From: Physcia stellaris
Lineage: Eukaryota; Ascomycota; Lecanoromycetes; Caliciales; Physciaceae
Direction: 5' to 3'
Length of the DNA: 64,000 nt
NCBI GenBank assembly: GCA_018902385.1
Contig: JABSSW010000009.1
Location: 806,001-870,000, forward strand
Shown: in pieces, positions 2,720-11,312 of the stretch
Numbering within the stretch: the stretch's first letter is position 1
How the letters are laid out: every line of letters starts with the position of its first letter
Made by a program: the position numbers and the translations under genes
The notes under the pieces: model-generated
The model's input: the letters and a program-made list of their open reading frames with translations, nothing else
Database searches by the model: none
What the model was told of the DNA's origin: nothing

Positions 2720-2942
2720 TGTTGACAGGAAAAAGTGCGAAAATGACTGAGCAACGAAAACTAAAATCGATAGAGTTAAATTCTATTGACATGACATTCG
2801 ACTGTTTATGAAACATTTTCATGAAATATGCAATTTGTACATACTTCCATTTAAATATCTAGCACTCAATAAGATTATTCTTGAAGACATTACATCATAC
2901 TATTTCGTATGTTTTGACGATGTGCTAGTAAGTCACTTTTCT
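2720..2942 (+). repeat. 5' LTR
   Basis: Direct repeat of 11090-11312, aligned without gaps and with about 17 differences, all transitions. It starts with TG. The end is defined by where the two copies diverge and by the target duplication; it does not finish in the canonical CA. Of the differing sites this copy carries the mutated (T or A) state at about 14, so it is the more heavily mutated LTR. Confidence 0.8.
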
Positions 2943-3119
2943 GAAGATCTTGTCAAGATAATTCGAACGTCAGAGCAGGTCGCTGCTAGCCGTCTCCTGA
3001 CAGAAATATCGAAATTGTAAAGTGATTCATTTCAGCACTTCTACAGAGGAATTCAACGCACATCAGATCATGAAATATTAGAAGCAATATTCAGTCATTC
3101 AGCAGTCAGAAATCACAGT

Positions 3120-3655
3120 ATTAGCAGGCGAGAAACGACGTGCAATTCAAGCAATTCAGTATCAGTCGACGAAAAACGACGTGTCGTTCAAGTCATTCAG
3201 TATCAGCAGACGAGAAACGACGTGCCGTTCAAGTCATTTAGTGCAGATCGTGAACAACGTGTCGTTCAGATCAGTCAATATCGTGTGTTAGTAAGTCTGA
3301 AACAACGTGCCGTTCAGATCAAAAAATACAGCGTGTTAATAAATCGTGAACGACGTGCTGTTCAAATCATTCAGAAAGTTCGTGAACGACGTGCTGTTCA
3401 AGACAAAATCAATGTCTACAGGCTAGAAACGACGTGCAGTTCAAATCATTCAACGTAGAGTATCAACAGACGAGAAACGACGTGTCGTTCAAGTCATTCA
3501 GTGCGAATACAAACAGACGAGAAACGACGTGTCGTTCAAGTCTTCAGAACAAAATATCAGCAGACAGGAAACGACGTGTCGTTCGAGTCATTCAATATCA
3601 GACGACGAAGAACGACGTGTCGTTCAAGTCATTCAGCAGTAACATCGATATCAGC
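3120..3655 (+). repeat. Tandem array with AACGACGTG core in the element leader
   Basis: About 13 units spaced 36-48 bp apart carry the core AACGACGTG(T/C)CGTT followed by a TCA(A/G)GTCATTCAGTATCAG-like spacer. Core positions are near 3136, 3178, 3218, 3255, 3303, 3351, 3387, 3430, 3478, 3525, 3572 and 3613. The core is an interrupted palindrome (AACGAC / GTCGTT). The array lies between the 5' LTR and gag, in what would be the untranslated leader of the element. Short frames across it are repeat-encoded and not genes. Confidence 0.8.
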
Positions 3656-4319
3656 GAATCAGATCGTTAAAGAGCTTCGTTACGTTGTGAATATCAGATG
3701 TTATCGAAACATCATCAGAATCAGAAACAATTCATATCTACTTCACGGCAATGCCAACATCAGTCATTCATACAACTATTTGACAGAGAATTCATCAGAT
3801 GTGTTTCGTACGAGTTTATCATCCGAATAACTAATGTCAGCGAGCTAGTGAAAAGTAACGACATACGCATATATTTGAAAATTCTCAGGAAGAATTTGCA
3901 TTTAAACTTCTTAATATTCGAAACAAGAATCTGATTTGCAAAAGCTTCAGAACATTATTTCTTGTCTTGATACTCATTACTCAGAAAGTGTTTTCATCTA
4001 CGAAGAAAATCGTGATCTCATTTTTTATTGTCTATCGAAAACGTCAATTCTTTACATCGTCACTTGATACGAGTCGAATTAATAGTTTTGTTCATTCGAA
4101 CATTGATTCGAAAAATCAACTGTCTTTTACGTTATCTGAAGAATACATCAATCAGTCACATAATCTCAGTTCTGTCTCATTCACAAGAGATTCTATAGAG
4201 CAAGAGAATTTCGTTCATTCAGAAAAGTCAATTAGTTGAGTTAGCAGTTTTTTCAACTCTCGTGTCAGTTCAATACAACAATCATTCATTATTCACATTC
4301 AGTCAATCAAGTCTATCAA

Positions 4320-9300: not shown

Positions 9301-10731
9301 CAGTGACGAGAGTGAGACGATTGAATCAAATTACATCAATGACGAGTGATATTCGAATATCTACAAGTATTACGCATGAGATCAAGCATCTAAAATAAAT
9401 AAGACGACAATGACAGCATTCAAACGCAAAGTAAATATTTATCGATACGACGAAACGAATAAACGATTATTACACAAGTACAAAGATGAATATTGCGTTT
9501 GCTTACAGAAGAACGAAATTGCGTCACTGCTACAAGAAGTGCATGACGAAGCAGATCACTTTTCTACTAATATAATACTCGCTCGTATTAAAGGCAAAAT
9601 ATATTGACCTTATATGATTTCGAACGTCAAGGTCTACGTACAAGAATGCATGAAGTGTGTTTTATGAGTATCAACAATGAGAACAATATCGTTGAAATCA
9701 ATTCAGACGTATCAGTCGTATGATCTATTTGGCATTGACTTCATGAATTTGTCAGAATCATCAAAGTACGATTACAAGCATATTTGCAACATGATGAATT
9801 ACTTTTCGAAACGCTTATTTCCATATCCTACTATCAGCATTAAAATCGAAGATGTAAAACAAACGCTCGAATATCATAAAGCTAATGATCATTCTATGTC
9901 AATTGCAGCCTATTGAGACGTCGATACAGCATTCAAATCGTCGAAAATGATCGAAACAATCAAGAATTTCAACATCGTTTCTATTCAAGCATTCAGTCAG
10001 TCACATAAGTCAATAGAAATGATAGAACGAGTCAATAGAATTCTACGTGTTGCGATGAACAAAATGAAGAAAAAAGACGAGAATGTCGTTGATACATTTC
10101 GTCGAGCGACTTCTGCATGCAATGAGAAACATATCGAACATCTGAAATATTCATTTGACGAAATCATCTTCGAAGTCGAGTCACGTGCATTCGCAACAGT
10201 CAGTCTCGTTCAAACAGTCATCCGAGATGAAAAGATCGTATTATCGACGCTTGAGAAAATGATTTCGCTCATTTGAAATCATATGACACGTTGTGAGAAG
10301 TTTCGTAAGAATGTTGTCAAACGAACTGATAAAGCGAAGCAAAAAATGAAAAAACGATATGACGTCGACGTCAAGCAACAGAAGTATTTTTTCGAGCAAA
10401 TTGTATTTCTTCGAAACTCAAATTCAATACACAATAAGACAGAATCACGTTGAAATGAACCGTTCGTAATAGCAGACTTCGGTGAAGAGCATGAATCTAA
10501 CTACAAGTTCAGAATTTTCGAAAATAAGTCAGCATCGAATATTCATCATGAGAATCAATTGCGAATATTTCGTGAACGTACTGAATATCTGCGCAAGATC
10601 AACGAAAAAGATTTTTCAATGATGAGAAACTTGAGAAGAACACGTAGAAAGATGATGAAGAAAACACGTAAGAAAACAACGAAAAAACAAACGTTTCGAG
10701 ACTTCGTTTATGAGAATCTTGATCGTCGTTA
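6320..10731 (+). pseudogene. pol remnant: protease, RT, RNase H, integrase
   Basis: Parts are recognised in order. A protease-like segment with a DSDLIF stretch lies near 6430-6460. Reverse transcriptase covers about 7620-8500, with the YIDD catalytic box at 8159-8170. RNase H covers about 8575-8990, where the first catalytic Asp of the FTDAS-type motif now reads Asn (FTNAS). Integrase has an HHCC zinc motif at about 9541-9669 (HDEADH, then CMKC) and a core with GIDFMN near 9735. A C-terminal PFVI segment lies near 10460. In-frame stops are almost all TGA, as expected from TGG to TGA change. Asp to Asn and Pro to Phe changes fit loss of GG/AG and CC/CT. The product would have been a polyprotein for reverse transcription and integration; it is not expressible now. 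Confidence 0.8.
9164..9186 (+). repeat. Internal copy of the 3' polypurine tract (cPPT-like)
   Basis: A 23-bp segment identical to 11071-11093, including the purine run GAGAGAGAAA. It lies between the RNase H and integrase parts of pol. The position resembles central polypurine tracts of some retroelements, where a second plus-strand start is primed. Only sequence identity is seen; priming is inference. Confidence 0.45.
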
Positions 10732-11070
10732 AGGTTTCCTGCTGACGAGTTAAAATATTTATTCGAAACAGACAATTGTCTCGACATCATACAAGGTCAA
10801 ATGAAACGAAATAACGAGAACTTCGAAGCATAACATGATTTCGGCAAAAGATTGTTGCGAAGTCGAATACATTATGACTGATCATTGAGCAGAAAGTTGA
10901 ACTTACTAAGTTGAATTTTCAATCATTTCATACAACGCTTGAATTCAGTCTTGCTTTACAATCACATCACGTTTTGTTTTGTCTTATTCTTGAAGTTCAT
11001 GACGCATTGTCATACATTGATTCGCATAACGTGTTAGTCGAACGATTTGTTGTTGTTGTCGAGAACGACA

Positions 11071-11089
11071 ACTTGTTATGAGAGAGAAA
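11071..11089 (+). promoter_or_regulatory. 3' polypurine tract of the LTR element
   Basis: The purine run GAGAGAGAAA (about 11080-11089) ends directly at the TG of the right LTR. This is the expected place for the plus-strand primer in LTR retrotransposons and supports the LTR start at 11090. Confidence 0.6.
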
Positions 11090-11312
11090 TGTTGACAGAA
11101 AGAAGTGCGAAAATGACTGAGCAACGAAAACTAAAATCGATAAAATTAGATCCTATTGACATGACATTCGACTGTTTATGAAACATCTTCATGAAATATG
11201 CAGTTTGTACATACTTCCACCTAGATACCTAGCACCCAATAAGACTATCCTTGAAGGCATTACATCATACTATTTCGTATGTTTTGACGATGTGCTAGTA
11301 AGCCACTTTTCT
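11090..11312 (+). repeat. 3' LTR, less mutated copy
   Basis: Direct repeat of 2720-2942. It still contains CC and GG dinucleotides and carries the mutated state at only about 3 of 17 differing sites, all within its first 60 bases, on the element side. Beyond 11312 the sequence is unmutated gene space, so this LTR marks the edge of the mutated block. The second copy of GTAAG follows at 11313-11317. Confidence 0.8.

Follow-up and report, generated by a model that had tools for sequence, protein, structure and literature searches.

In Neurospora crassa, repeat-induced point mutation (RIP) places dense, directional C-to-T changes on both strands of repeated DNA in a genome that encodes RID-type and DIM-2-like proteins, and its order of targets is given as CpA > CpT > CpG > CpC (PMC5496416; here and below, PMC numbers stand for excerpts of the papers). 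We describe a pattern in the lichen fungus Physcia stellaris that resembles the Neurospora process in all of these respects except the target order: CpC is preferred to CpT, CpA is a weak target, and mutation at CpG is close or equal to zero. It was recognized in a Ty3/Gypsy-type element bounded by long terminal repeats (LTRs) in a 64,000-nucleotide stretch of contig JABSSW010000009.1 (positions 806,001 to 870,000 of the forward strand), referred to as the window, and was then followed through the genome.

Other described systems differ from P. stellaris in one or more targets. RIP has been shown experimentally in Trichoderma reesei, also with a site order of its own, CpA being about equal to CpG and followed by CpT > CpC (PMC5496416, in which the symbol joining CpG and CpT is missing); CpC thus comes last there, unlike in P. 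stellaris. CpT is a main target in Magnaporthe oryzae, Botrytis cinerea, and Sclerotinia sclerotiorum, for which a RID-linked motif has been proposed (PMC4352252), but CpA is targeted as well in these fungi, and the excerpt does not mention CpC. CpT also overshadows CpA in a RIPCAL alignment of the Neurospora element Tad1 (PMC2621366), and in a survey of Ascomycota it predominated wherever fungi capable of RIP were aligned (PMC7882544). Given the findings for Magnaporthe, Botrytis, and Sclerotinia and those of this survey, a CpT target is not new in itself. Transposons of Microbotryum violaceum carry RIP-like mutations at a non-CpA target, as here, but that target is CpG, which P. stellaris spares, and no RID/Masc1-type gene was found there. 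A partial likeness exists with Rhizoctonia solani AG8, in which CpC is the densest CpN class of single-nucleotide polymorphisms in both genome and repeats (PMC4014442); this fungus is, however, a basidiomycete, its polymorphisms are genome-wide and include genes, its authors argue for a CpG bias, and the pattern is not a near-complete loss of CpY (C followed by a pyrimidine) from repeats. Cladonia rangiformis resembles P. stellaris in its AT-rich repeats, its RID and DIM-2 homologues, and the sharp edges between genes and elements, but its elements peak at approximately 16% GC, and its description mentions neither CpA nor dinucleotides. Repeats of Endocarpon pusillum are positive by CpA-type indices, the fungus designated M. 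haptotylum was noted as being without CpA depletion (PMC3828140), and CpC-to-TpT double changes occur alongside classical CpA changes in Monilinia (PMC8959702). A literature search of partial coverage, including few subscription papers, yielded no report of a process that strikes CpC first while sparing CpA and CpG. We read the pattern as a genuine CpC-first form of RIP, for which the enzyme stands at the level of a candidate.

Differences between the two LTRs of the window element

The element and its borders in the window are as follows.

2716-2719 and 11314-11317: target-site duplication TAAG, adjoining the left and right LTR, respectively
2720-2943, + strand: left LTR, 224 bp, mutated at 14 of the 17 differing sites
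2944-11089, + strand: internal part of the Ty3/Gypsy-type element, with the domain order read in the unmutated copy
11090-11313, + strand: right LTR, 224 bp, mutated at 3 of the 17 differing sites

The two LTRs, both of which begin with TGTTG, aligned over 224 bp without gaps and differed at 17 sites. All 17 differences were transitions, 8 at CpC and 9 at CpT, with no transversions and none at CpA or CpG; the count in the initial annotation, about 17 sites with about 8 at CpC and about 9 at CpT, was thus exact. Given that 48% of C sites in the unmutated copy lie in a CpY context, the probability of 17 such sites out of 17 is approximately 4e-6. An 18th difference, apparent in a 227-bp alignment, is the base immediately outside the LTR. 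The presence of TAAG on both sides, together with two other LTR pairs that agree with this one, suggests a single insertion rather than a mixture of subfamilies, in line with the annotation's reading of the differences as mutations and not ancestral variants. The unmutated copy shows RNase H, the integrase zinc-binding domain, and the integrase core in this order, and RNase H ahead of integrase is the Ty3/Gypsy arrangement.

The two agreeing pairs belong to copies on contigs C24 and C38 and showed 24 and 33 transitions, respectively, without transversions. For the three pairs combined, sites with an identical 3' neighbor in both LTRs numbered 43 for CpT, 19 for CpC, 1 for CpA, and 0 for CpG, with the 3' neighbor also differing at 12 further sites; the alignments counted here extend a few bases beyond the LTRs and, in the window copy, take in the base just outside. 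A fourth pair, that of the copy L045 on C11, had 8 transitions and 7 transversions, and the CpY pattern was absent from it.

Polarized mutation rates in two element families

Matches to the LTR numbered 29 in the genome, and three further full copies were taken, those on C24, C38, and C11. The last of these, L045, is a natural copy rather than a consensus and served as the reference (GC of 0.48, CpC at 0.90 of expectation). The assembly analyzed consists of 147 contigs and 43.97 Mb, compared with 184 scaffolds and 46.57 Mb in the published description (PMC7513301, excerpts that do not discuss RIP in P. stellaris), and short contigs may be absent from the assembly analyzed. C-to-T changes relative to the reference, tabulated by the 3' base, were as follows, with a second family polarized against its own unmutated copy, L013.

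Window copy versus L045 (8.6 kb): CpC 729/904 (81%), CpT 414/1101 (38%), CpA 48/1182 (4%), CpG 46/962 (5%)
C24 copy versus L045: CpC 770/910, CpT 507/1103, CpA 51/1182, CpG 42/959
C38 copy versus L045: CpC 848/901, CpT 968/1095, CpA 78/1182, CpG 42/954
Range over these three copies, 8.6 kb each: CpC 81-94%, CpT 38-88%, CpA 4-7%, CpG 4-5%
Second family, 11 copies versus L013: CpC 4204/4312 (97.5%), CpT 3906/4532 (86.2%), CpA 300/4322 (6.9%), CpG 135/3998 (3.4%)
Cleanest pair of the second family, L013 and L030 (C52, C55), changes in L030: CpC 434/436, CpT 450/461, CpA 26/443, CpG 0/408

The comparison of copies by 3' base that the initial annotation had called for therefore gave CpC > CpT >> CpA and CpG. 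Its proposal of a specificity other than CpA or CpG was borne out in both families, in which CpC was highest, CpA was mutated at 4-7%, and CpG was low. Its CpY rule held as far as a pyrimidine 3' of the C is concerned, but had to be refined in that the two targets are unequal, CpC being exhausted before CpT, with CpA at most a weak third (about 6% in the cleanest pair) and CpG left intact in that pair. In the comparisons with L045, ordinary divergence between copies contributes to the residual CpA and CpG rates, because other types of substitution occur as well. In the L030 copy, which was aligned with L013 over 3462 columns plus 13 gap positions, there were 910 C-to-T changes and 1 other substitution. 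Nearly all targets must hence have been hit within a few rounds, the mark of a fast mutator with a sharp rule.

The 5' base had a weak effect, with C-to-T rates of 0.29-0.30 in the window copy, 0.31-0.35 in the C24 copy, and 0.44-0.51 in the C38 copy. The effects of the -2 and +2 neighbors were likewise small, except that in two of the three copies CpC ahead of a further C changed less often (0.65-0.66), a deficit compatible with the inner C mutating first. We also sought strand-coordinated runs of mutation and found none, correlations being mostly <0.1 with a maximum of 0.21 (opposite strands, 1-20 bp, C38). In the window copy as well as in L043 and L044, CpT mutation was lower toward the ends of the element, with rates in the window copy of 0.19-0.20 in the first 500 bp compared with 0.28-0.56 in most inner bins; the lower rates look as if repeat ends were recognized less well. 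Pairwise counts over all LTRs (CpC 72%, CpT 53%, CpA 19%, CpG 13%) pointed in the same direction but mix diverged copies, with 1309 transversions, and the rule was derived without them; a pooled table of 117 pairs (CpC 87%, CpT 82%, CpA 12%, CpG 7%; 7697 transversions) also mixes families.

Spread through the genome and stop codons

Among 30 reverse transcriptase (RVT) loci, 23 were depleted of CpC, 6 were normal, and 1 was intermediate; 14 of the 30 were without any CC or GG. The 23 depleted loci had a GC content of 0.24-0.31, down from approximately 0.5, and CpG at 2.4-4.3 times expectation, and graded copies exist. CpT was lower than CpC in none of these 23 loci, and several had no CpC with CpT at approximately 0.4 of expectation. 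CpA, by comparison, did not fall below 1.01 of expectation in any of the 30. The intermediate locus (L018, C30:439742-443212), with CpC at 0.43 and CpT at 0.70 of expectation, represents either an intermediate stage or a locus with a partly unaffected flank, and is possibly of use for ordering the steps. A 60-kb sample was assembled from twelve stretches of 5 kb, each starting at a fixed coordinate, and divided into 120 half-kb windows; 10 of these were AT-rich and the same 10 were depleted of CpC, whereas none was depleted of CpA. CpA as the main target, the outcome that would have spoken against the initial annotation, did not appear in the two polarized families, the 30 RVT loci, or this sample.

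The stop codons carry the same signature. RVT_1 matches, of which 150 were scored among 527 candidates, contained 250 TGA, 33 TAA, and 3 TAG, with TGA as the only stop in 112 of the 140 stop-bearing matches. This predominance arises because a single CpC or CpT change creates a new stop only by turning TGG into TGA. The unmutated copy has 30 TGG codons in three open frames, and 29, 27, and 26 of them are TGA in the three mutated copies, the C38 copy adding 3 TAA; 77 CAA or CAG codons of the same frames gave 1, 0, and 0 stops, and 28 CGA codons likewise 1, 0, and 0. DNA transposons showed the bias as well, with 44 TGA and 3 TAA over 10 DDE_1 matches (two of them overlapping) and 19 TGA and 2 TAA over 13 hAT matches, and CpC was depleted in four of the six DDE_1 loci whose composition was examined. 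As a control, P450 matches (derived from 92 scored of 248 candidates) contained stops in 23 of 108 cases, with a mixture of 14 TGA, 18 TAG, and 18 TAA by hand count, the pattern expected from introns. A deaminase-family match on C64 with four TGA was considered as a mutated gene duplicate and was rejected; its composition is normal and it is probably split by introns.

DNA adjoining the element

The remainder of the window was assigned as follows.

1-2387, strand not given: fully mutated portion of a second repeated LTR element, GC of 0.27
2269-2387: probable LTR of this second element, 119 bp, with separate matches as well (for example, C9:802570-802688)
11318-64000: neighboring gene-bearing DNA, unaffected and used as a control

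No CC or GG dinucleotide occurs in the 2387 bp of the upstream element, so that mutation extends beyond the LTR element described above; 11 further copies are present in the genome at 93-96% identity, 10 of them long and 1 partial. The signal ends at the edge of the right LTR, the following 287 bp containing 34 CC or GG. From position 12000 onward, 1-kb windows had a GC content of 0.43-0.56 and CpC at 0.68-1.38 of expectation. Just inside the left LTR, positions 3114-3651 hold nine imperfect copies of a AAACGACGTGTCGTTCAAGTCATTCAG-like repeat, spaced at 41-48 bp apart from two wider gaps of 85 and 127.

Response of standard RIP indices

We applied RIPper thresholds (as in PMC8959702) to 1-kb windows of 32 loci, and none of 146 CpC-depleted windows was RIP-positive by the standard indices. 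The listed mutated stretches had a product index of 0.37-0.49 and a substrate index of 1.22-1.63, compared with 0.67 and 1.29, respectively, in the gene part of the window. The product and composite indices thus rate the mutated sequences as less affected by RIP than the gene part.

Candidate methyltransferases

The initial annotation had also suggested inspecting the genome for RID and DIM-2 homologues and their motifs. A search with PF00145 gave four matches in three methyltransferase genes, RIDa (C6), RIDb (C5), and a DIM-2-like gene (C3), none with internal damage in its gene model. Both RID-type proteins carry PPCQ and either EQT or EET. RIDb matches the Physcia stellaris protein G7Y79_00005g016670 without a difference across the 739 residues searched, and it groups with the RIDs of other Lecanoromycetes. 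The best PDB matches of the C3 product were 9bap and 9baq (604 bits), labeled simply as DNA (cytosine-5-)-methyltransferase; we assign the name DIM-2 tentatively. ENV, the usual motif of DNMT proteins, is present in the DIM-2-like protein. RIDa falls among RID/DmtA proteins and has SPPCQ, EET in place of ENV, and GNAVPP, as in class I (RID/Masc1).

The tree started from 43 database proteins together with both RID-type proteins and the DIM-2-like protein; of these 46 rows, the six in which the start motif was not found were dropped. RIDa (L009, C6:790057-794028) clustered with Heterodermia and with metagenomic relatives, and the fork enclosing this cluster also holds Eurotiomycete proteins, some of them named DmtA (support of 96/93), with weaker support for the forks within. 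Its position, which is not among the other Lecanoromycete RIDs, may reflect an old paralogue or horizontal transfer. Conservation was counted over 27 rows, from which three long-branch rows, the DIM-2-like row, and both Physciaceae groups had been omitted. RIDb departed from one conserved column, with a serine also found in Usnea, and RIDa from nine, five of which lie just after PPCQ. There, in all five members of the RIDa group, Q replaces H (in 25/27 rows elsewhere), F replaces D (27/27), and L replaces F (26/27); none keeps an N (27/27), and a T (27/27) is changed in three of the five. In M.HhaI, the stretch after PPCQ forms the loop that folds onto the DNA next to the flipped base, which makes it a fair place to seek a changed 3' rule. 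We regard the RIDa loop as a lead, not as proof.

Discussion

The sequence-level rule is established: it was polarized in two element families, and composition and stop codons support it in others. With regard to RIP in the broad sense, we found directional C-to-T change in repeats with few other changes, in several kinds of element, in a genome with a RID-type enzyme, and with P450 genes and the neighboring gene-bearing DNA unaffected. The CpA depletion and TpA rise of CpA-type RIP were not seen, with CpA mutated at 4-7% compared with 81-98% for CpC, and the 0/408 CpG sites changed in the cleanest pair do not fit a CpG type. That the mechanism is RIP, and which enzyme writes it, we infer with decreasing strength.

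On this evidence, CpY-directed RIP by one of the three methyltransferases is very probably the explanation. Repeated DNA would be recognized before meiosis by homology, as in Neurospora, and a DNMT1-type cytosine methyltransferase would convert C ahead of a pyrimidine to T on both strands, taking CpC first and CpT next, CpA hardly, and CpG not. The favored candidate for the writer is RIDa, a second RID-type enzyme of the lineage in which the catalytic loop following PPCQ is altered; the canonical RIDb or the DIM-2-like enzyme, alone or together with RIDa, might also serve.

The same pattern could have arisen in other ways. Slow spontaneous deamination of methylated CpC and CpT in silenced repeats, with no dedicated mutator, would give the same direction of change, and a DIM-2-like gene is present; the ratio of 910 to 1 in the L013/L030 pair, however, requires a rate far above background, the LTR pairs with 17, 24, and 33 transitions lack transversions, and methylation in Zymoseptoria favors CG whereas mutation falls at CA (PMC8016269), so that methylation alone does not set the rule. 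We therefore consider this explanation improbable. An APOBEC-like cytidine deaminase acting on reverse-transcription intermediates or other single-stranded DNA appears much less probable still: C-to-T change on both strands and a dinucleotide rule would suit such an enzyme, and one APOBEC-type enzyme prefers CC, but APOBEC enzymes read the 5' side, whereas it is the 3' neighbor that rules here and the 5' neighbor is weak, and DNA transposons are mutated too. APOBEC_N had no match in the genome, but 14 control genomes were equally silent, so absence is not proven; among the matches listed, eight belong to the dCMP-deaminase family, one of which was inspected. Ultraviolet damage in a sun-exposed lichen would strike CpC and CpT as dipyrimidines, yet TpCpA and TpCpG, dipyrimidines as well, were mutated at 3-4% compared with 91% for ApCpC and 81% for GpCpC, and the adjoining gene-bearing DNA is untouched; the trinucleotide table refutes this origin, to which we give almost no credence. 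Hardly any weight attaches to an artefact either, whether base-calling errors at methylated repeats in what is a Nanopore/Illumina hybrid assembly (PMC7513301), an unusual genetic code, or mixed subfamilies, in view of the fall in GC from approximately 0.5 to 0.24-0.31 over 23 loci with graded copies, the presence of the pattern in noncoding LTRs, and the TAAG duplication with its two agreeing LTR pairs.

Within CpY-directed RIP, the choice of enzyme is much closer. RIDa is the leading candidate for the writer, and we put its claim slightly short of an even chance. That the writer is instead the DIM-2-like enzyme, the canonical RIDb, or two enzymes serving CpC and CpT separately is a substantial possibility, although one that we would not favor: all three genes look intact, and depletion proceeds at unequal rates for CpC and CpT, as in the loci without CpC in which CpT remains at approximately 0.4. 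Zymoseptoria Dim2, however, mutates CpA specifically (PMC8016269), RIDb departs at a single conserved column where RIDa departs at nine, and CpT never falling below CpC in the 23 depleted loci fits one graded activity. The annotation's suggestion of a divergent RID/DIM-2-type enzyme is plausible and can be narrowed, since two RID-type genes and one DIM-2-like gene seem intact and the RIDa loop is changed, while the writer stays a candidate.

Several points weigh against CpY-directed RIP or against RIDa as its writer. Some copies escape, two of six DDE_1 loci not being depleted of CpC and six of 30 RVT loci being normal, and no mutated duplicate of a non-transposon gene was found, the single candidate followed being that on C64. 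RIDb retains the usual motifs even though the usual CpA mutation is absent, and the choice of dinucleotide may lie outside the conserved motifs altogether. DIM-2 methylation in Neurospora reportedly favors CpT (PMC13297926), and the link between RIDa and CpY rests on one species.

We also entertain, as a tentative and rather doubtful proposal, a wider scheme in which a second RID-type enzyme, whose affinity is with DmtA of Eurotiomycetes more than with the RID of the lichens themselves, reads the 3' pyrimidine through a changed DNA-touching loop, and in which CpC-first RIP would have replaced the CpA type in a clade of lichen fungi; surveys based on TpA/CpA indices or AT-rich k-mers would be blind to it. 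A 2025 survey of 1,239 fungi described RIP-like defenses as sharing a CpA preference, on the basis of AT-rich k-mers (PMC12543289).

The rule in P. stellaris is nearly the mirror image of that quoted for Neurospora. Its effect on coding sequence differs accordingly, new stops being nearly all TGA from TGG with CAA, CAG, and CGA almost spared. The short list of enzymes, one of them with visible loop changes, brings the determinants of the dinucleotide choice of RIP within reach of domain swaps and heterologous tests. Standard tests miss CpC-first RIP, and lineages that have been called RIP-free may not be so.

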